Both the position numbers and the translations under genes were made by a program. A stretch of DNA of 64,000 nucleotides. Origin: Verpa conica (taxonomy: Eukaryota > Ascomycota > Pezizomycetes > Pezizales > Morchellaceae). Shown here in pieces: positions 30,009 to 52,030 of the stretch (positions are counted from its first letter, which is position 1; each line of letters starts with the position of its first letter). The notes under the pieces were generated by a model, which was not told the origin of the DNA, did no database searches, and saw nothing but the letters and a program-made list of their open reading frames with translations. The stretch lies in assembly GCA_033030425.1 (NCBI GenBank), contig JAUFSD010000023.1:1-64000 (forward strand), read 5' to 3'.

Positions 30009-33000
30009 TCAGGAGTCACAGTGTAATAAAGAACAAAAGAAAAAATGCTTAGTCTTATCCAAAGACTTCGTAAAAATATCTGCCACATTATCCCCAGTCT
30101 TAACATATTCCAAAGAAAAAATCTTATCTGCTAACCTTTCCCTGACATAATGAAATTGAACATCAATGTGCTTAGACCTCTTGTGATGAACCGGATTTTT
30201 TGAAAGTAAAAGAGACCCATTGTTATCCCCCAAAAGAACATAAGAAAGATTCAAACCAATTCCTTCACAGGCTCGTCTTAGCCATACCATTTGTCTTGCA
30301 GCATGAGATAGTGCCATGTATTCCGCTTCGGTCGTTGACAGGGCGACTGTGGTTTGCTTTCGAGAACTCCAGGAGATTAGACTCTTTCCCAAGAAGAAAC
30401 AGTTTCCAGTGACAGATCTTCTGGTGTCAGGGCAGCAGGCGTAACTTGAGTCCGAAAATCCTTTGAGGGTATCTGCCTTTCCTTTCTCATAGTATAAGGC
30501 CATGGTTCGAGTTTCTTTCAGGTAACGAAGTGTTCTTTTGGCGGCATTCATGTGAGATTTGTTGGGTGCTGATGAGAATTGGGACAGTGTAGTAACGGCG
30601 TAAGCTAGATCTGGTCTGGTTCCTATAGCAGCGTACATGAGAGATCCAACAATTGACTGATAGAGGGTTTGGTCCTCTATTTCTTCTTCCGTTCCCTTTT
30701 GGAGGGAAATATTGGTGTCAAAGGGTGTCGATACAGGTCGACAGTCTGTCATGTTAAAGCGTTCCAGAACCTTGTCAATATATGCCGTTTGATCCAGTTT
30801 TAACTTGTCTCCATCATAGCTTATGGCTATCCCCAGAATCCAGCTTGCCTTTCCCAGATCCGTCATCTTAAACTCACTCTTAAGTAAATCTTTTACCCTC
30901 TCAGTGGCCTTTCCCTGCCTGGCAAACATGGTGATGTCGTCAACATAAACGTCCAAAATCATGTCTGTTGCTATGAACACACAGGGATCGAAATCTGATA
31001 CTAAAAAACCATTACTGGCCAAAAAATCGGAGAGTCGAAGGTACCATTCTCTGGAGGCTTGCTTGAGTCCGTAAATGCACTTCTTGAGCTTACAGACCTT
31101 TCCAGGAGCGTTCAGGCCGGGGGGCAGTGCCATGTAAATTTCTTCTTTGAGATTTCCATTTAAAAAGGCACTTTTGACGTCCATCTGACTGATTTCCCAG
31201 CCGGCAGAGTGAGCAGTGGCGAGAAGTAGGCGAAGTGATTCGTATCTGGAGACAGGTGCAAAGGTGTCATCGTAGTCCTGTCCTGGTACCTGGGAGAATC
31301 CTTTGGCTACCAGCCTAGCTTTATGCTTGATCAATTCTCCTTTGGCTCCGAGTTTCGTTTTATATACCCACTTGCAGGCCACTATCTTTCGATTTACCGG
31401 CTTGTCCACTAGTTCCCAGGTCCCATTTTCTTGGATTGAAGTCATTTCTTCCTTCATGGCTTGACGCCATTCTTCCGCTTTCTCTGAGTTCATGGCTTCA
31501 GTGTAGCTGACGGGGTCTTGACTCACTTCTGCCATTAGAGCAGCATGGGAGGAGTACCAGTCCGGTTTCTTTCTTTCTCTTGTGGAGCTTCTGGGAGTAA
31601 TCAAAGGAAGAGGTATAGGTGAGTTCGATCTGGTCGGTGGTTGACTGGAAAAAGGAGATAAATCTGGAAGTGCGGTATCTTTTTCTAGTACTTCCTTGTC
31701 TGAAACTGAGCTGCTTAACTGGGAAGAGGTGGACATGGATTCGTCGGTAAGAACTGAAGGGGACTTGGGTGCTCCGGACGATGTAGTCGGAGTAGGTGTA
31801 GGTTCTTTGTCACTTGTACCTATTATTATGTCTTCTGGAGTTTGTGGTTCCGGAAAGCGTACATTTCTGTATGCAGATACCTTCTTTTCAGATGGTATGT
31901 AAATCCGGTAAATGTTGTTGGTTCCAGTGTATCCGACGAAAATTCCTTCCTTAGCTCTGGGTGCCAGTTTCGAGTCCGTTCCTCTTGTTTCCACGTCTAT
32001 GTGTACAAAGCACTTCTGACCAAAGATTTTTAGGTGTCCAATCTTGGGTTTCTCACCAAAGAAGACTTCGAAGGGAGTCTTTTTGATGGTCCTGTGTGGT
32101 ATGCGGTTCTTTGTGTAACACATGGCTGCTATAGCTTCAGCCCAGAGGAACTTTCCCTTGTCTAATACCACAGTTCTGGCCATGGTTGCAATAGTTCTGT
32201 TGTACCGTTCGGCGACACCGTTTGAGGAGTGGGCGTATGCGGCAGTGGTTTCATGAATGATTCCCTTTTCAGAGAGGAAGGTAGAGGTGGACTTGTTAAT
32301 ATACTCTCCTCCATTGTCGGTTCTAAGTTTCTTGACCTTTTTCCCTGTCTGGTTTTCGATCATGGTAACAAATACTCTGAGAGCTTCGTAGGCATCTGAC
32401 TTGTTTTTGAGAAAGTAAACGAAGGACATGCGAGAAAAATCGTCAATGAAGGTGATGTAATAGTGCATGCCGCCGAGTGATGCCTGGGAGAACTTTCCAG
32501 AGAGGTCTGAGTGTACCAGTTCCAGTGTCCCTTTTGTCTGGGAGGTGGAGGAGTGATAAGGAAGGGCGGTTGATTTCCCTAGTTGACAACTCACACATGT
32601 TTCGAGATCGCCAGATTTGGGTAGAGATTCAGGATCTGCTACTGATTGTTTGAGTAGGGGAAGAGAGGAAGAAGGTAAATGTCCTAGCCTTTGATGCCAT
32701 TGCCGAAAAGAAATTGCTGCTGCTGCTACCGTATGTTGCTGAACCAAAATAAAATTCCCAATTGTGTCCTGCTGTGCCCACGCAAAGACCTTTCCATCCT
32801 TTTGTATCCTTATATCCTTATTAGACCCTGACATAGAAAAACCTTTTGCTGAAATCCGTTTCCAAGAGAGAAGATTAAAATGAGAACCCGAAACATAAAG
32901 AACATTTTCCAAAGATAACTGAGAGAGAGACCCATCCGGTAGCTTGGCTACTATTTTCACTGTACCTGTGCCCAAAATTGGCAGACTACTTCCACCAGCG

Positions 33001-34202
33001 GTTGTAACGTTTCCTGAAAGAGGGCGAATCGAGGTGAACAGTGATCTGTTTCCAGATATATGATCAGTCGCACCTGTGTCAAAGATCCACTTGGTTTCGG
33101 TGGAGGAAGGTTCAGTCGTAGAAATGAGAGCGGTGGTTGGTGTAGTTTTATATTCTGGGTAGGGTACAACGCTTTGGTCATTGATCTTGAGTATGGGGTC
33201 CAGATAGGACATGTAAAAGCATGTAGCTTGAACGATGTTTGCTTCTTTGTTGTCCTTTTCGGCCTTCTTTTTCTTTTGCCTTGCTTCCAACTTGAAGCAT
33301 TTTCTGGTGTTGTGGGAGGTAACTGGAACGTTATTGTTCCTTTTGGTGCAGAAGGTGCACAACATGTCGGATTTCTTCGAGGGTTGTTGTCCAGTTTTGG
33401 CGACGTAGGCAGTTTTATCTACCTTGCTGGAGTTTTGTTTGGTAGCTATGTTCATCAGGTGCTCGTATACATCTTGATAGGATAGTGTGACTTTGGTCTG
33501 GAGATTATCCACGATACCGTCATAAGACGAAGGTAGGGACATCATTAGATACTGGGCTTTTAGAGCATGTGAAGATGCCATTGCACCATAGATTTCCGCC
33601 AACTTGTCTCCAACCAGAATTACACTCGTCCTTTCTGACAACTGCATCCATAGATTCTCAAAGTTTTGTATGTGAGCTTTCAGGGAGGAGGAGTCGTCGT
33701 ACTCTAGTCTGTTTACTGTCTTGACTAGATTTAGGAGAGTGGTAGGAGATCTTCGGTCGTAGGTGTCGATGATAGCTTTCCACATATCGAAAAGGTTGTC
33801 ATAGGAGGATATGATGGGGATGACTTCTGGTTCCACATTGTGGAAAAGGTAGCTACACCCCCACTGATTTCGTTCGGTCCATGTTTCTATTTCTGTTTCT
33901 GCCTCCGCAGCCAGCCTAGCTTCTTGCTCATCATGGTCCTCCTTCGTTATTTCCTCTGTGATTTCTTGAATTCGAGTCAGATTTGATGTGTCTTCGGCAG
34001 TTTCGGCTTTCTCTTTTTCTTTCTTTATGGTAAATTCGGACTTGGTATGCGTGAGGGGTTGTTTCTCTTGACCGGTAGCGATTGAGAGGACTTTGAACAA
34101 CTTGAAGTCGGACTTAACAATGGCGCTCCAGGAGGAGAAATTATCTTGTCCTGAGAGCTGAATTTTGAGAGTGGGAATACGATCATATCTGATGGTAGTC
34201 AT
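30009..34202 (-). CDS. Copia gag-pol polyprotein, 1397 aa
   Basis: A single frame from ATG 34202 to TGA 30009, ending 7 bp before the 3' LTR. In order: Gag (UBN2/Ty1 type, residues about 1-270), a zinc-knuckle-like C-x2-C...H-x4-C near 280-310, aspartic protease (WIFDTGATDHISG, near 375), GAG-pre-integrase H/C motif (HQRLGH...CVSC, about 500-535), integrase DDE core (FIDDFSRM, LRTDNGGEY, E in NGVAERYN), a Ser/Pro-rich spacer, reverse transcriptase with YVDDI (near 1080), and RNase H (GFSDSSYA, TTEAEYMAL). All catalytic motifs are present and there is no stop or frameshift, so it is probably functional. It makes new copies of the element in virus-like particles. No separate gag frame or programmed frameshift is needed. 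Confidence 0.95.
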   Translation of the reverse strand: MTTIRYDRIPTLKIQLSGQDNFSSWSAIVKSDFKLFKVLSIATGQEKQPLTHTKSEFTIKKEKEKAETAEDTSNLTRIQEITEEITKEDHDEQEARLAAEAETEIETWTERNQWGCSYLFHNVEPEVIPIISSYDNLFDMWKAIIDTYDRRSPTTLLNLVKTVNRLEYDDSSSLKAHIQNFENLWMQLSERTSVILVGDKLAEIYGAMASSHALKAQYLMMSLPSSYDGIVDNLQTKVTLSYQDVYEHLMNIATKQNSSKVDKTAYVAKTGQQPSKKSDMLCTFCTKRNNNVPVTSHNTRKCFKLEARQKKKKAEKDNKEANIVQATCFYMSYLDPILKINDQSVVPYPEYKTTPTTALISTTEPSSTETKWIFDTGATDHISGNRSLFTSIRPLSGNVTTAGGSSLPILGTGTVKIVAKLPDGSLSQLSLENVLYVSGSHFNLLSWKRISAKGFSMSGSNKDIRIQKDGKVFAWAQQDTIGNFILVQQHTVAAAAISFRQWHQRLGHLPSSSLPLLKQSVADPESLPKSGDLETCVSCQLGKSTALPYHSSTSQTKGTLELVHSDLSGKFSQASLGGMHYYITFIDDFSRMSFVYFLKNKSDAYEALRVFVTMIENQTGKKVKKLRTDNGGEYINKSTSTFLSEKGIIHETTAAYAHSSNGVAERYNRTIATMARTVVLDKGKFLWAEAIAAMCYTKNRIPHRTIKKTPFEVFFGEKPKIGHLKIFGQKCFVHIDVETRGTDSKLAPRAKEGIFVGYTGTNNIYRIYIPSEKKVSAYRNVRFPEPQTPEDIIIGTSDKEPTPTPTTSSGAPKSPSVLTDESMSTSSQLSSSVSDKEVLEKDTALPDLSPFSSQPPTRSNSPIPLPLITPRSSTRERKKPDWYSSHAALMAEVSQDPVSYTEAMNSEKAEEWRQAMKEEMTSIQENGTWELVDKPVNRKIVACKWVYKTKLGAKGELIKHKARLVAKGFSQVPGQDYDDTFAPVSRYESLRLLLATAHSAGWEISQMDVKSAFLNGNLKEEIYMALPPGLNAPGKVCKLKKCIYGLKQASREWYLRLSDFLASNGFLVSDFDPCVFIATDMILDVYVDDITMFARQGKATERVKDLLKSEFKMTDLGKASWILGIAISYDGDKLKLDQTAYIDKVLERFNMTDCRPVSTPFDTNISLQKGTEEEIEDQTLYQSIVGSLMYAAIGTRPDLAYAVTTLSQFSSAPNKSHMNAAKRTLRYLKETRTMALYYEKGKADTLKGFSDSSYACCPDTRRSVTGNCFFLGKSLISWSSRKQTTVALSTTEAEYMALSHAARQMVWLRRACEGIGLNLSYVLLGDNNGSLLLSKNPVHHKRSKHIDVQFHYVRERLADKIFSLEYVKTGDNVADIFTKSLDKTKHFFFCSLLHCDS

Positions 34203-46296: not shown

Positions 46297-49200
46297 TCAA
46301 GCACCAATATGAATATAAGATGCCCACATGATAGGTTGCCTCCAATACGTATCCCGTAGCTTTTTAACAGCGGAATGGAATGAAGCACTAACTTTCCGGT
46401 GACCACTCTCAGTCTTACATGGTTGACCATCAAAAAGCAAACGATAGAACTCCCCAGAAACCTTCAGGCACGCATCATCCTTTGATACCCACTGTGTTGC
46501 AAGCACATGGCTGAATCCCGCAAGCTGGAATCCACTGGCAATATAGATCGACTCTTCCGCTAAGACCTCTGAGGCATTTTCTGCGGTGCAGCAAGCAGAG
46601 AGATATGCTATCTGTGCGCGTTGAATATTTGTTTTCGATATTGTTTCGACTGTCAGTCTGTCTGGCTCATCTGACCCATCTTCGGGTTGAAGGAGCAACG
46701 CGCTATTTGAAGGACTGTCGGGGTTGGATACGCCGTGACAGGCAAAATGAATGGTATCGTGTGATGGAAGCTCCTTAAGCACTTGGGCTACGCTCGGATA
46801 GGCCAGGGAGTTTGTGCCAGCTTTGCCATTGACAAGACTCACAATTGTCTTAGATTCCTCTGCCGCTTTGGAGAGATCGCCCCACTTTTTTCCAGGGGTA
46901 CTAGGCATGGTAACGATAAGGATACGGGAATCTTGTTTTCCAAGGAGCTCGAGCTTCTTCTCACGGGCGTATGAAAGGGCCTTAATTGTTGGGATATATG
47001 ATGAAATAGCTCGACACATTGTATTGTTCTCCGTTTTAGGATCCCCTGCAGCATGGAAGGGTGCCATAGCTAGAGGCCCTGCACCAATCCACCAAACTCG
47101 AGGTAGGTCTGCACTATTGGCCACCGGGAGTAGTTTCAAAACCTCACACACTGGCCCTACAGCTACATCCCATAACCACTGCAGTAACTCCCGCATCCTG
47201 TTGTTCCGAGCTGCGTATGTCGACCGCGGGCCGGTAGTAAGCTTACCCATCTCGCTCATCCATTCCCGTGCTTCTCCCCACAACTCCTTCCGGAGTCGTA
47301 GCGATCTAATACCTGAATTTGTAACAATAATAGCATCGCTTCGAAGCTCTACGCTATTGAAAGTTACTATTGGACCGTCGTTCGCCATTGACATGAGGTA
47401 GTCAGCATGGGGTGGAAGTTGGAATCCTTCAAAACCAGGTAACTCCCTGATGGAAGCCAATGTCTCGTCAAGCTGATTAGCCACCAGCTGTCGTCGATCC
47501 CGGACCTGTTCATATGTGGGTTGATAAGTGCCCGAAGTTGTATCTAACTTTATACTAGCTAATGGAGAATCAATCTCAAGTCGGAGACTGTGAAGCCTCT
47601 CGAATATTTCTGGATGCTCCCCTTGCAGCTCTGAGAGGTCGCTCCTGCAATCAATCGCAAATCCCATGATGATTCCTCGACCTAGCTCAAATAACCGAAG
47701 ACTGTATGATGCATCTTCGCCAGCCTGCAAAGCATGGGCCACAGAGAGCAATGTCGTGTGAGTCATGCCAGAACTAGACAATCCATACTCTTGATCGCTT
47801 CTTCCTGTTGACCTCAGGACTACCTTTGGAAGCAGTTTGACAGCATCCGCAAGGATCGAACTAGACTCCTGCCACATTTTCTTCAAGGAAAGAAGTACAG
47901 AAACTGTCCGAGCTACTCTAATCCGAGAACGTGGTGGTGATGTGAGGCAATGCCAAGCCGAGTAAAGAATATTAAGGCTGTGATGAAAATCCCGAGAAGA
48001 ACTCGTTCGTATGTATCTTGAGACCAGGTGATATCCTAAACTCCCCAGTATAACGTCTTGGGAGGTATCTCCAGGGGGCGCTGTTGCATGCGCCTCCTCT
48101 CCATACTTGATGCACTGCTCCAGATCCTCTAATGCTCTTGACTTCTCATACCTGTCATGCAAGCGGTTACTCAGATTGTTCAACCATGATGGTCTAGCAG
48201 GGTGATCCAAGGGTGTCAATGCAAGGGCTTCATCCTCTAGTATTATAGCCCGATCAAGGTCCTCTACTGCTCCGGATCGCTTATATTTGAAGGACAACAA
48301 GATACTCAGATTGTTTAACATCGTCGGTCTACCGATATGGCCAGGTGGTGTTTCCGCAAGCGCTTCTTCGCCCCAGTGGATAGCCTGTACGAGGTCCTCT
48401 ATTCTCTTAGATCTCTCATATCTGGTTGACAGATGATCACTCAAGCTATGCAACCTCCATGCCCTTCCAGTATTTCCGGCGGGTGTTGCTGCAACTGCTC
48501 CCTCCGCACAACTGATAGCCTGCTCAAGGTCTGCTGTAGCCCCAGATCTCTGATAAATATCAGACAGCAAGCTACCCAGGCTACTCAACATCGTCGCTCT
48601 ATCTGCATGCTCAGGAGGTATCTCTACAAGTGCTTCCGCCGTCCCTTTGATAGCTTGCTCCAGGTCCTCCGGAGCCCCTAATACCCGGTATCTACCGCGG
48701 AGACGGTTACTCAAGTTATGCAACCGACCTGCTCTGGCTGTATGTCCAGGCACCGTCGCTACAAGTGCCTCCTCTCCTAGCTTGATAGCCTTCTCAATAT
48801 CCCCAACTACCCCGGACTTGATATATCTGTCTGACAACAAACCGCTCAGACTATTCAGCACCGTTGCTTTGTAGGCGTGTTCAGGAGGTATTGCTGCAAG
48901 CGCCTCCTCGGCCCCCTCAATAGCCTTCTCAAGGTCTTCTACTGCCCCAGATATCTCATATCTTATAGACAACATGTTGCTCAGGTTATTCAACATTGCT
49001 CCTCTGTAGATCTGTTCAGGTGGTGTTGCCGCAAGTGCTTCTTCTGTTCGCCTGATAGCCTTCTCAAGGTCTTCGACTACTCCTAATCTCTCATATCTGG
49101 TGCACAGAAAGTTACCAAGATTGCTCAACATCACTGCTCTTTCGCTGTCATCAGGTGGTGTTGCAAGTGCTTCCTCCACCCGATTGATAGCCTGCTCAAG

Positions 49201-50559
49201 ATCCTCTATTGCCCCAGATCTCTCATACCTGGCAGACAATTGACTACTCAAGCTATTCAATACCGTTGCTCTATATTCTTCTTTAAGAGGTACTGCTACC
49301 AATGCTTCCTCACATAGCTTGATAGCCTGCTGAAGGTCCTCTACGACTCCGAGCCCTTCATATCTGCTGGACATTAAATTACCCAGGTTATTCAATACCA
49401 CTGCTCTATAGGAATGTTCGGGAGGTATTTCTGAAAGTGCTTCCTCCGTCCGCTTGATAGCTTGCTCAAGATCCTCCGATGCTCCGAATCGGTCATACCT
49501 GGTACTAAGGATGCTCCCCAGATGGTCTAAATTGAATGCTCGATTTGTTTGTTCGGACCTTTCTGAAACTGCGGCTTCGAACCAGTTGATTGCTCTCCCA
49601 GTCCGCTCGAGGCTTCCACCCTGGTTAGCACTAGCATGAACTATATCGACAATCATTTTGACATAATATTGGTCCATCTCCGTTGCTCGGGTTGATTCAA
49701 TTAGCCTCTCGGCTAGCTGAATAGTATTCTCGAGATATTTAATCTCCCCAGTATCTGCATACTGCTCATAGCAGGATTCCAGGAGCTTCGCTATCTGTAG
49801 ATTTGACATTGAGGGTGCGCTTGAATTTCCCCTATACATTCCAGTCCAGAGGTTAGTTCTCATAACCTTTGTATTTTGGTAGGAACTTTTGAGTACATTT
49901 GTGCATCAAGTTCCAATACTGGGTTTAGGGTTCTCCGGGTTTTCAATAAACGATTCAAGGGCTTTTCGTTCCTGGTATCCAATAAGGCCAGACGTTCAGC
50001 TAGTCCGATCGCACTTTCCAGACAATTCAATTCGCCTGTCGTCTCGAATTGCTGAGTGAAACTACGAATGAGTTCTACACTCTCTTGTTGTGCCGGCGGG
50101 ACCGACCACTTGAGCTCTCCGGATTCTGAACTGCTGCAGCTTTCTGCATCCGATATCGACTCGTCCCTAGGGATTGCCATTGAGAGGTCAGCTCCCAGTT
50201 CTTTCACGCCAGCCCCTGCAATTCAATTCTTACTCTGTCAGACCCTCAGTGTCCTCCCCCAAGGCATTCCGGATATCCAACAGACGGTCCAGGGCCCCCT
50301 GGTTACGATTGTCATAAGCAACAAGTTCTTCAACTAGCCCGATGGCGCTGTCGAGCTTGGTGCTGTCATGCGTTTCTTCGTAGCTCCTAAAGAATCCTCT
50401 GACCAGTTCTATAGTGCCCTGCTCCGCCGGGCCCGCGTGTAACTCGAGGAAACCTGGCTGCTGGTCGTCTCCACCTGGAATATTGGTTCCATCCGCCCTT
50501 TAATCATTAACCACGAAAGGTCATTACTTATTCCGACTGTTTAAATCGTCTACTTACAT
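46297..50559 (-). CDS. TPR-CHAT caspase-related protease, about 1356 aa
   Basis: Exons down the minus strand: 50559-50558 (only AT of the start codon), 50497-50234, 50166-49897 and 49831-46297. Introns of 60, 67 and 65 bp have GTAAGT, GTAAGA and GTACTC donors and CTGAC/ACTAAC branches, and all keep phase; the split start codon is inference. The N-terminus has three related helical units, one per exon. Next come about twelve TPR-like units of 45 residues (pattern EDLEQAI...EEAL...P...RA..LNNLS..L..RY). The C-terminal third is a CHAT domain with HFACHG (catalytic His about 1211) and LSACCTAEN (Cys about 1259). CHAT proteases are caspase relatives. There is no NB-ARC or NACHT motif. It lies head to head with the gasdermin-like gene, whose product it may cleave when the TPR array senses a partner. 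The CHAT and TPR calls are secure; the substrate is inferred. Confidence 0.85.
48001..49605 (-). repeat. Twelve tandem TPR-like coding repeats, unit 135 bp (45 aa)
   Basis: Successive units share the frame EDLEQAI-x4-EEAL-x3-P-x-E/D-x3-R-A-x2-L-x-N/S-L-S/G-x2-L-x-x-R-Y-x-x-S/L-G. The first unit is 41 residues, one is 44 and the rest are 45. Units differ at many positions, so they are diverged rather than freshly amplified. On the + strand they appear as recurrent CTTGATAGCC and CAAGGTCCTC words. Confidence 0.8.
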
Positions 50560-51127
50560 TATTATTCACAGCCGACACTTTTTTATATGTATAACAATTC
50601 TTACTGTTCTATCGCCCTGGGAGTTGTGGTCAAGCTGCTGGGGTTTGAACGGTCGGGGTAGAAGAATAGCATTTACAATGTCAGGTGGGTACATATGACA
50701 CGTTACGGTATGTGCAGCCACACCACAAGGCAGCCATGGCCCTTGCTGCTGGTTGCCTGTAAAGTAAGACTCCGCGGAATGCATAAAATACTGAGGCTCA
50801 AGAGGCTGAGCATGTCTGCAGTGTCTGGACCTTTTACTCCTGTCATTCGGGATGTATTCCCTATAGAATAATTGTTGCCCGCATTCGCCAAGGGAGCCGC
50901 AATATGCAAACCACGTCGCATCTCCCAGTAAAGCATGCTGCTATATATGTGAGGAAGCTTTGCGACAGCGTAATATCACCGGTTCCTATATCCCAATACT
51001 CCTCGCGTGATATTAGCTTCCCAAATACTCCACAAACCCGAGATCCGTCAACGGCTTTTACTCCCAAAAGAAGTCCTCATACCAACCCCCAACAGTATTA
51101 TATCTCCCAACGCCTGTAACCGCCACG
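50560..51127. promoter_or_regulatory. Shared divergent promoter between TPR-CHAT and gasdermin-like genes
   Basis: About 570 bp separate the proposed start codons of the two divergent genes. A TATATATG stretch near 50943 could serve the rightward gene. Frames crossing this region on both strands lack motifs. The short shared region suggests co-regulation. Confidence 0.45.
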
Positions 51128-52030
51128 ATGGCTATGCTACATTTACTAGAGGATACCCTCCCGATTAATTCCATCAAGATTGGACGTCTCCTTCTCAACC
51201 CCAAACAACCTCAACAACAGTTCATCGACCCTCTCGACCTTCGCCCGACCGGTACGGAGATCAACCACAATGACCAACAGACATTGACACTTCCTAAAAA
51301 CCACAAGATACCACCGTACCTCACCACCATAGCTTCCATTTCTATTTCTCATTCCGAATCCCTCCCGTTGACCGCAACCTTAACCATCCCGGGAGCCACT
51401 TCCTATACCCTCAAGAATCCCGCAGCTTGGTTCAGAACTGCGTGCTGTCGGCCACCTACACGAGAGTTCCTCGAAGAGGCGTTCGAAAACCAAGACGACG
51501 TGTACCTTATCGTCGGCTTCCGCATAATCAAGGACCCTGGCACCACTGGGACCAAAATGCAGGGAACTACGGTTACACCATCTAACCCTATGAGTAGTAG
51601 CGCCGGGCCGGGGGTGGGACACCCGTTGGAGTTCCCATATAAGGAGCCCGGAGAGCATATATTTACAGTGCTGTACCACAAAGTTCAGTTCCAATGCCTC
51701 TCGAGCCTCTACGTCAATACCGCTACCCTCGAGGAAGACAACCGTTGGGTTTCAACTTGGTGTTGGCGTGGACCGGTCCAGCAGTATGAGCTAGCTGAGG
51801 AAGACAATGTGATTGAAGCAATACTTATGGGTTTAGATGATACAAATTTACTGGACGAGAAGGACGGCTCAACTAGAGATCTCATGGAGTGGGCCCCAGA
51901 CATTTTGTGTATAGTGCCAAGGATTCCGGATATCCCAAAGCGTAAGGAGGATAATATGAAACGGACACTAGAGAAGAGTGCAGACGACGAACCCTCGAAG
52001 CGATTGAGATCTAGTTCCATCATAGTTTAA
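51128..52030 (+). CDS. Gasdermin-like pore-forming protein candidate (HET-Q1/RCD-1 type), 300 aa
   Basis: A single exon from ATG 51128 to TAA 52030; no signal peptide and no classic membrane helix. The N-terminal region, LPINSIKIGRLLLNPKQP, and the later DDVYLIVGFRII strand (about residues 124-133) resemble the fungal gasdermin family, which kills cells in allorecognition. The first 215 residues are beta-rich. Residues about 225-300 form a charged tail (acidic stretch, then KRKEDNMKR and KRLRSSS). In HET-Q1 a C-terminal piece of about 5 kDa is removed by a neighbouring protease to release toxicity, and a tail of similar scale is present here. The divergent neighbour is a CHAT protease, matching the known gasdermin-protease gene pairing. 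The family assignment rests on remembered motifs and context, not on a search. Confidence 0.6.
   Translation: MAMLHLLEDTLPINSIKIGRLLLNPKQPQQQFIDPLDLRPTGTEINHNDQQTLTLPKNHKIPPYLTTIASISISHSESLPLTATLTIPGATSYTLKNPAAWFRTACCRPPTREFLEEAFENQDDVYLIVGFRIIKDPGTTGTKMQGTTVTPSNPMSSSAGPGVGHPLEFPYKEPGEHIFTVLYHKVQFQCLSSLYVNTATLEEDNRWVSTWCWRGPVQQYELAEEDNVIEAILMGLDDTNLLDEKDGSTRDLMEWAPDILCIVPRIPDIPKRKEDNMKRTLEKSADDEPSKRLRSSSIIV

Follow-up and report, generated by a model that had tools for sequence, protein, structure and literature searches.

The 64,000-nucleotide stretch of Verpa conica DNA analysed here (hereafter the window; bases 1-64000 of contig 23, JAUFSD010000023.1) carries, on its minus strand, a gene for a protein with TPR repeats and a CHAT protease domain, which stands head to head with a gene for a 300-residue gasdermin-like protein on the plus strand (51128..52030). 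Judged from sequence comparison and structure prediction, the two probably form a fungal gasdermin/TPR-CHAT cell-death unit, a reading to which a probability of roughly three in four is assigned. The pairing of gasdermin and CHAT genes is of a kind already known, and in the Verpa genome it is repeated as about ten intact pairs. Because pairing, orientation and co-divergence recur in this genome, the two genes are regarded as a real two-gene unit. An earlier note, made from the letters of the window alone, had proposed such a module; both open reading frames (ORFs) lie where it placed them and are divergent.

The gasdermin-like gene is a single exon supported by homologues and by the predicted fold, and modelling indicates a product from a fungal protein family in which an N domain of gasdermin fold precedes a short C-terminal tail. 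Alignments, the structure model and the fold search place the N domain at residues 1-235 (51128..51832, plus strand). The protein is conserved, as a first database search gave one relative (P0001, 49% identity) and profile searches gave 12 and then 36 relatives among the matches listed; in addition, one of the copies in the Verpa genome shares 75% identity with a relative from Morchella importuna (P0002). Further homologues come from Wilcoxina mikolae (P0005, P0027), Trichophaea hybrida (P0033, P0037) and Bipolaris sorokiniana (P0011). The motif VYLIVG, to which the earlier note had pointed, falls where the family alignments are best conserved. Sequence searches alone yielded no significant match to gasdermins: Pfam offered no family above the cut-off (best E 0.12), and phmmer and the family profiles found no match at E 0.001 or better in the PDB, where HET-Q1 was not among the comparisons. 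P0040, used as a bridge to solved gasdermins, returned two matches (E 0.16-0.17), neither of them a gasdermin, and the deepest family profile reached RCD-1-1 weakly (E 1.6) with a matching register. In the fold search with the predicted structure of the window protein, of which the predicted local distance difference test (pLDDT) is only 49.5, the top 16 entries were gasdermins; with the predicted structure of a relative (pLDDT 67.8), gasdermins occupied ranks 1-21, with CDC and MACPF entries below them. Neurospora RCD-1 ranked first in all four fold searches. The earlier note had held that a predicted structure unlike gasdermin N domains would speak against its proposal; the predicted fold matches gasdermins above all else and thus sustains the likeness.

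The genome searched comprises 45.8 Mb in 25 contigs and contains 17 matches to the gasdermin-like protein including itself (E up to 10), with 15 of the 16 others below 1e-5. An ORF spans the whole domain in 13 of them, whereas three are fragments and one on contig 19 is a fusion, which reached E 0.09 in the genome search and 4.4e-12 with the family profile. CHAT matches number 22, or 21 loci once two pieces on contig 9 are merged. Eleven of the 17 gasdermin-like matches lie no more than 10 kb from a CHAT locus, against 0.16 expected (binomial P 4.5e-19), so that chance proximity is rejected; the window gene itself has its CHAT match, and hence a protease gene, at a distance of 3.9 kb. Ten of these 11 pairs are divergent, the exception on contig 20 (about 1.23 Mb) having both genes on one strand. 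The pair on contig 9 appears broken or intron-split, with an in-frame stop in the CHAT match and a gasdermin of which the searches recovered just the C-terminal part. The six unpaired gasdermin-like matches comprise one on contig 6 (fused to TPR repeats), two on contig 20, two fragments on contig 4 and the one on contig 19. Conversely, ten of the 21 CHAT loci lack a gasdermin partner: at six of them the family profile found none in the 9.4-9.9 kb read at each, and at the other four none was found by whole-genome searches. A link to subtilases (S8) was likewise rejected, the nearest S8 locus lying 82 kb from any of the 17 gasdermin-like matches (15 S8 matches from the genome search, used as 12 merged loci). 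On contig 4, two tandem CHAT genes on the same strand (2151610-2157935) adjoin one gasdermin-like gene (2162676). A pattern scan for relatives in viral and genome contig collections gave 14 and 11 matches, none of which was confirmed. The structure search and the search for co-occurrence with CHAT genes, both of which the earlier note had suggested, favour its module by the fold match and by the recurrent, mostly divergent pairing within one genome.

The partners have also diverged in step. Gasdermin and CHAT distances, the latter taken from the last 330 residues, are correlated in the ten intact pairs (Mantel r 0.62; P 5e-5, the lowest value that the test can give). The correlation amounts to 0.67 without the most divergent pair and to 0.52 (P 0.008) when one of each close pair is removed as well, leaving seven pairs. 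Nearest neighbours are concordant in eight of ten pairs; the discordant two include the window pair, whose gasdermin is nearest to the copy on contig 25 and whose CHAT protein is nearest to that on contig 7 in a near tie (0.59 vs 0.58). These sequence distances fit units that duplicate and diverge together, which by itself is no proof of contact between the partners.

The protease gene is represented by an ATG-bounded ORF of 1188 residues (46297-49863, minus strand), in which the main exon occupies 46297..49831 and positions 49832-49863 are probably intronic, given the splicing proposed here. Both domain assignments of the earlier note were confirmed by Pfam. TPR_10 (PF13374) matches in eight stretches (E 1.2e-36), and the caspase/separase-like CHAT protease domain (PF12770) covers residues 892-1188 (46300..47190; E 6.9e-34, 118 bits with the cut-off at 24, and 122.2 bits in the genome search). 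The motifs HFACHG and LSAC are intact and in this order; within them, the histidine (46735..46737) and the cysteine (46591..46593), with positions computed from the ORF and codons confirmed in the DNA, are presumably the catalytic residues. From the Pfam matches, a listing of the units and the tandem repeats, the TPR array extends over 47992..49473 and comprises about 11-12 units of 45 residues (135 bp). The reported arrays of 135-bp repeats match at only 69-72%, which argues against fresh homogenisation of the units. Neither NACHT nor NB-ARC occurs among the 11 Pfam families (E up to 1) matched in a scan of the 1188-residue ORF. The proposed 5' exons (50558-50559, 50234-50497 and 49897-50166, minus strand) would extend the protein to 1356 residues in four exons with a start at 50559, a putative model built from reading frames and in-frame GT..AG joins. 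Its three introns measure 60, 67 and 65 nt, the third (49832-49896) preceding the main exon, and the exact start is tentative since the first intron splits the start codon. Under this model the head-to-head intergenic region, presumably a shared promoter, measures 568 bp (50560..51127), in agreement with the spacing of about 570 bp given before.

Given the gasdermin-like fold and the recurrence of the unit, the pair is best read as a pore-former together with the TPR-CHAT protein that would activate it by proteolysis. The TPR array would sense a cue or an intruding protein, whereupon a cut by the CHAT domain would separate the N domain of the gasdermin from its tail; the freed N domains could then come together on a membrane and bring about cell death, in defence or allorecognition. 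This agrees with what reviews report, namely that protease genes cluster with over 80% of fungal gasdermin genes, that 17-19% of those proteases are CHAT or cysteine proteases, and that gasdermin-linked proteases commonly bear TPR, ANK or WD40 repeats while NLRs form a small subset (PMC12881547, PMC10197012, PMC10989679). The same reviews describe, after Clave et al. 2022, a TPR-bearing CHAT protease of Podospora anserina that activates its gasdermin (PMC12881547, PMC10197012, PMC10989679). With this precedent, a sensor that has TPR repeats but lacks a nucleotide-binding domain is not unusual, contrary to the view of the earlier note. In Aspergillus fumigatus, a CHAT protein is the product of one of the alleles at the incompatibility locus hetB (PMC11138114).

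Other explanations have to be weighed against this reading. The proximity of the genes might be a by-product of segmental duplication without any functional link, and block duplication alone would indeed let the partners diverge together. Still, linkage has been kept at deep divergence, with gasdermin identities down to 23-25%, and the head-to-head arrangement has persisted in ten of 11 pairs, although neighbours under no constraint should have become separated, which makes this explanation highly improbable. The family might also share the fold of the gasdermin/MACPF/CDC superfamily without being gasdermin by descent and might serve, e.g., lipid binding or as a scaffold for CHAT. That no solved gasdermin is linked to the family by significant sequence similarity would be in line with this, as would the CDC and MACPF entries that follow the gasdermins in the fold list. 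Nevertheless, the undivided run of gasdermins at the top of that list, the first rank of RCD-1 throughout, the weak RCD-1-1 profile match in the same register, and a pairing with CHAT as reviews report it for fungal gasdermins leave such an origin quite improbable.

A more serious point concerns the membrane pore, the least certain step for the window copy owing to a degenerate second pore hairpin. This region (51518..51649, plus strand), placed between VYLIVG and PGEH, comprises 44 residues with seven prolines. Of 53 sequences tried, 47 were scored, the window copy included, and six were dropped as the pattern did not match their motifs (four of these measured 48-65 by an earlier pattern). 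The window hairpin is the second shortest after P0001 (42 residues), followed by one of 49, whereas the other 44 span 55-67 residues. Its seven prolines are exceeded by none of the 47, and the share of V/I/L/M/F/W/Y/A in its core (0.18) is the lowest, the next being 0.24. By its sequence, then, this copy cannot be counted on to form pores in the simple manner. The same unit could accordingly contain, in the window copy, a regulatory or pore-poor gasdermin (decoy, dominant-negative or helper) that modulates other gasdermins of the genome once cut by its CHAT partner, and the weakening of the basic stretch SKSSKLR, which is common in the family, would suit such a role. However, the AlphaFold confidence is low exactly at this hairpin, the lengths compared are those of the sequence, and with G and C counted the window hairpin (0.36) is not the least hydrophobic, P0018 being marginally lower (0.35). 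Moreover, RCD-1-1 works with a hairpin of about 53 residues (counted from the alignment), only about nine more than in the window copy. For this reason, an outright inability of the window gasdermin to form pores was rejected as too strong a claim, and a pore-poor role is judged unlikely, if credible. The short hairpin is not simply decay of the window copy either, since P0001 shares it with an intact ORF.

The tail differs as well. The window copy has about 65 residues after the N domain, which alignments show to be divergent and acidic, then basic, resembling a bipartite nuclear localisation signal (NLS; 51833..52027, plus strand). Many relatives end in an acidic and then hydrophobic or aromatic C-terminus, e.g., DEEILYI or EEFLF (P0002, P0005, P0018, P0022), which in this branch of gasdermins is a candidate for an autoinhibitory peptide; the window copy lacks it and ends in a basic stretch instead. 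The bipartite-NLS pattern arose by shuffling in 3.7% of cases for the window tail and in 0.4% for P0001, which as a homolog is not independent; the pattern was found post hoc and is kept only as a lead. In a further, rather doubtful variant, the window pair would hold a pseudo-gasdermin that has lost a normal second hairpin, has stayed intact along with its TPR-CHAT partner and regulates, or is kept from, pore-forming siblings encoded at other places in the genome, its tail controlling location instead of, or besides, inhibition. If true, such control would take the form of a basic NLS-like tail here and of a transmembrane anchor, as predicted for four or five paralogs.

A C-terminal membrane anchor is predicted in four or five of the 13 gasdermin-like copies of the genome. 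The ORFs in question (L010:1288-2301, L011:1501-2664, L016:1108-2265, L020:904-1920 and the weaker L015:1414-2340) end in or near a hydrophobic stretch with a 19-residue mean Kyte-Doolittle value of 1.71 to 2.69, and three of the four strong cases are paired with CHAT genes. Among database relatives with a value for tail hydropathy, none of 37 exceeded 0.6; three further tails were too short. The open-access literature searched held nothing on tail-anchored fungal gasdermins or on gasdermin-like proteins of Pezizomycetes, and for Morchella gasdermins no item concerned fungal gasdermins by its title and the start of its abstract. Two further paralogs are fusions without a CHAT match nearby: on contig 6, a gasdermin-like domain is followed by TPR repeats in one ORF (L012:1495-3189; Pfam), and on contig 19, a TPR-like array, recognised by eye with no Pfam match, precedes the gasdermin-like domain (L025:1396-3321).

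About 3.7 kb upstream of an unpaired CHAT gene on contig 14, and divergent from it, lies an ORF that resembles the start of a caspase-like protein (L042:2-424, minus strand); its motif WAVLIGINCY is taken to be caspase-like, and no Pfam match was obtained for this cut fragment. In the window itself, a 1397-residue ORF at 30009-34202, about 12 kb from the pair, was recognised by eye as a Copia-type retrotransposon polyprotein. A search for telomere repeats as a sign of a subtelomeric position revealed no array but four scattered one-mismatch matches (0.42 expected; as many as four arose in one of 100 shuffles).

Follow-up is worthwhile for the short-hairpin copy, the predicted membrane anchors and the large number of head-to-head pairs. 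The pair adds a divergent, multi-copy branch, unnamed by Pfam models, to the pyroptosis-like systems of fungi. About ten intact pairs in one genome offer a natural set for asking which TPR-CHAT protein cuts which gasdermin, i.e., for specificity versus cross-talk, and the short-hairpin and predicted anchored copies would bear on how far the gasdermin mechanism can change while the pairing with a protease is kept.

Compared with known systems, the pair resembles the fungal gasdermin/CHAT clusters described in reviews, including those with Q2-like proteases and the TPR-CHAT protease of P. anserina, in its short-tailed gasdermin fold and its adjacent multidomain protease; with the P. anserina protein it shares TPR repeats and a CHAT domain, no nucleotide-binding domain having been found. 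Unlike these clusters, the Verpa genome holds many head-to-head copies and no S8-linked member was found, and the window copy combines a degenerate second hairpin with a basic tail. The closest solved fold is that of RCD-1-1 and RCD-1-2 of Neurospora crassa; RCD-1 acts on co-expression of both variants, no proteolytic activation step was observed, and an inhibitory C-terminal domain is absent (PMC11760362). HET-Q1 of P. anserina is of similar size (278 residues), and a protease removes a short C-terminal fragment from it; its partner HET-Q2 is an S8 subtilase of 388 residues (PMC10989679), whereas the partner in the window is a TPR-CHAT protein. Bacterial gasdermins (7n50, 8sl0 and 9a84 in the fold searches) share the fold of the window protein and, according to reviews, feature a short C-terminal peptide and a protease neighbour; the acidic-hydrophobic C-terminus of the relatives resembles their short inhibitory peptide in kind. 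The window family is nevertheless fungal, and RCD-1 outscores the bacterial gasdermins in the fold comparison.
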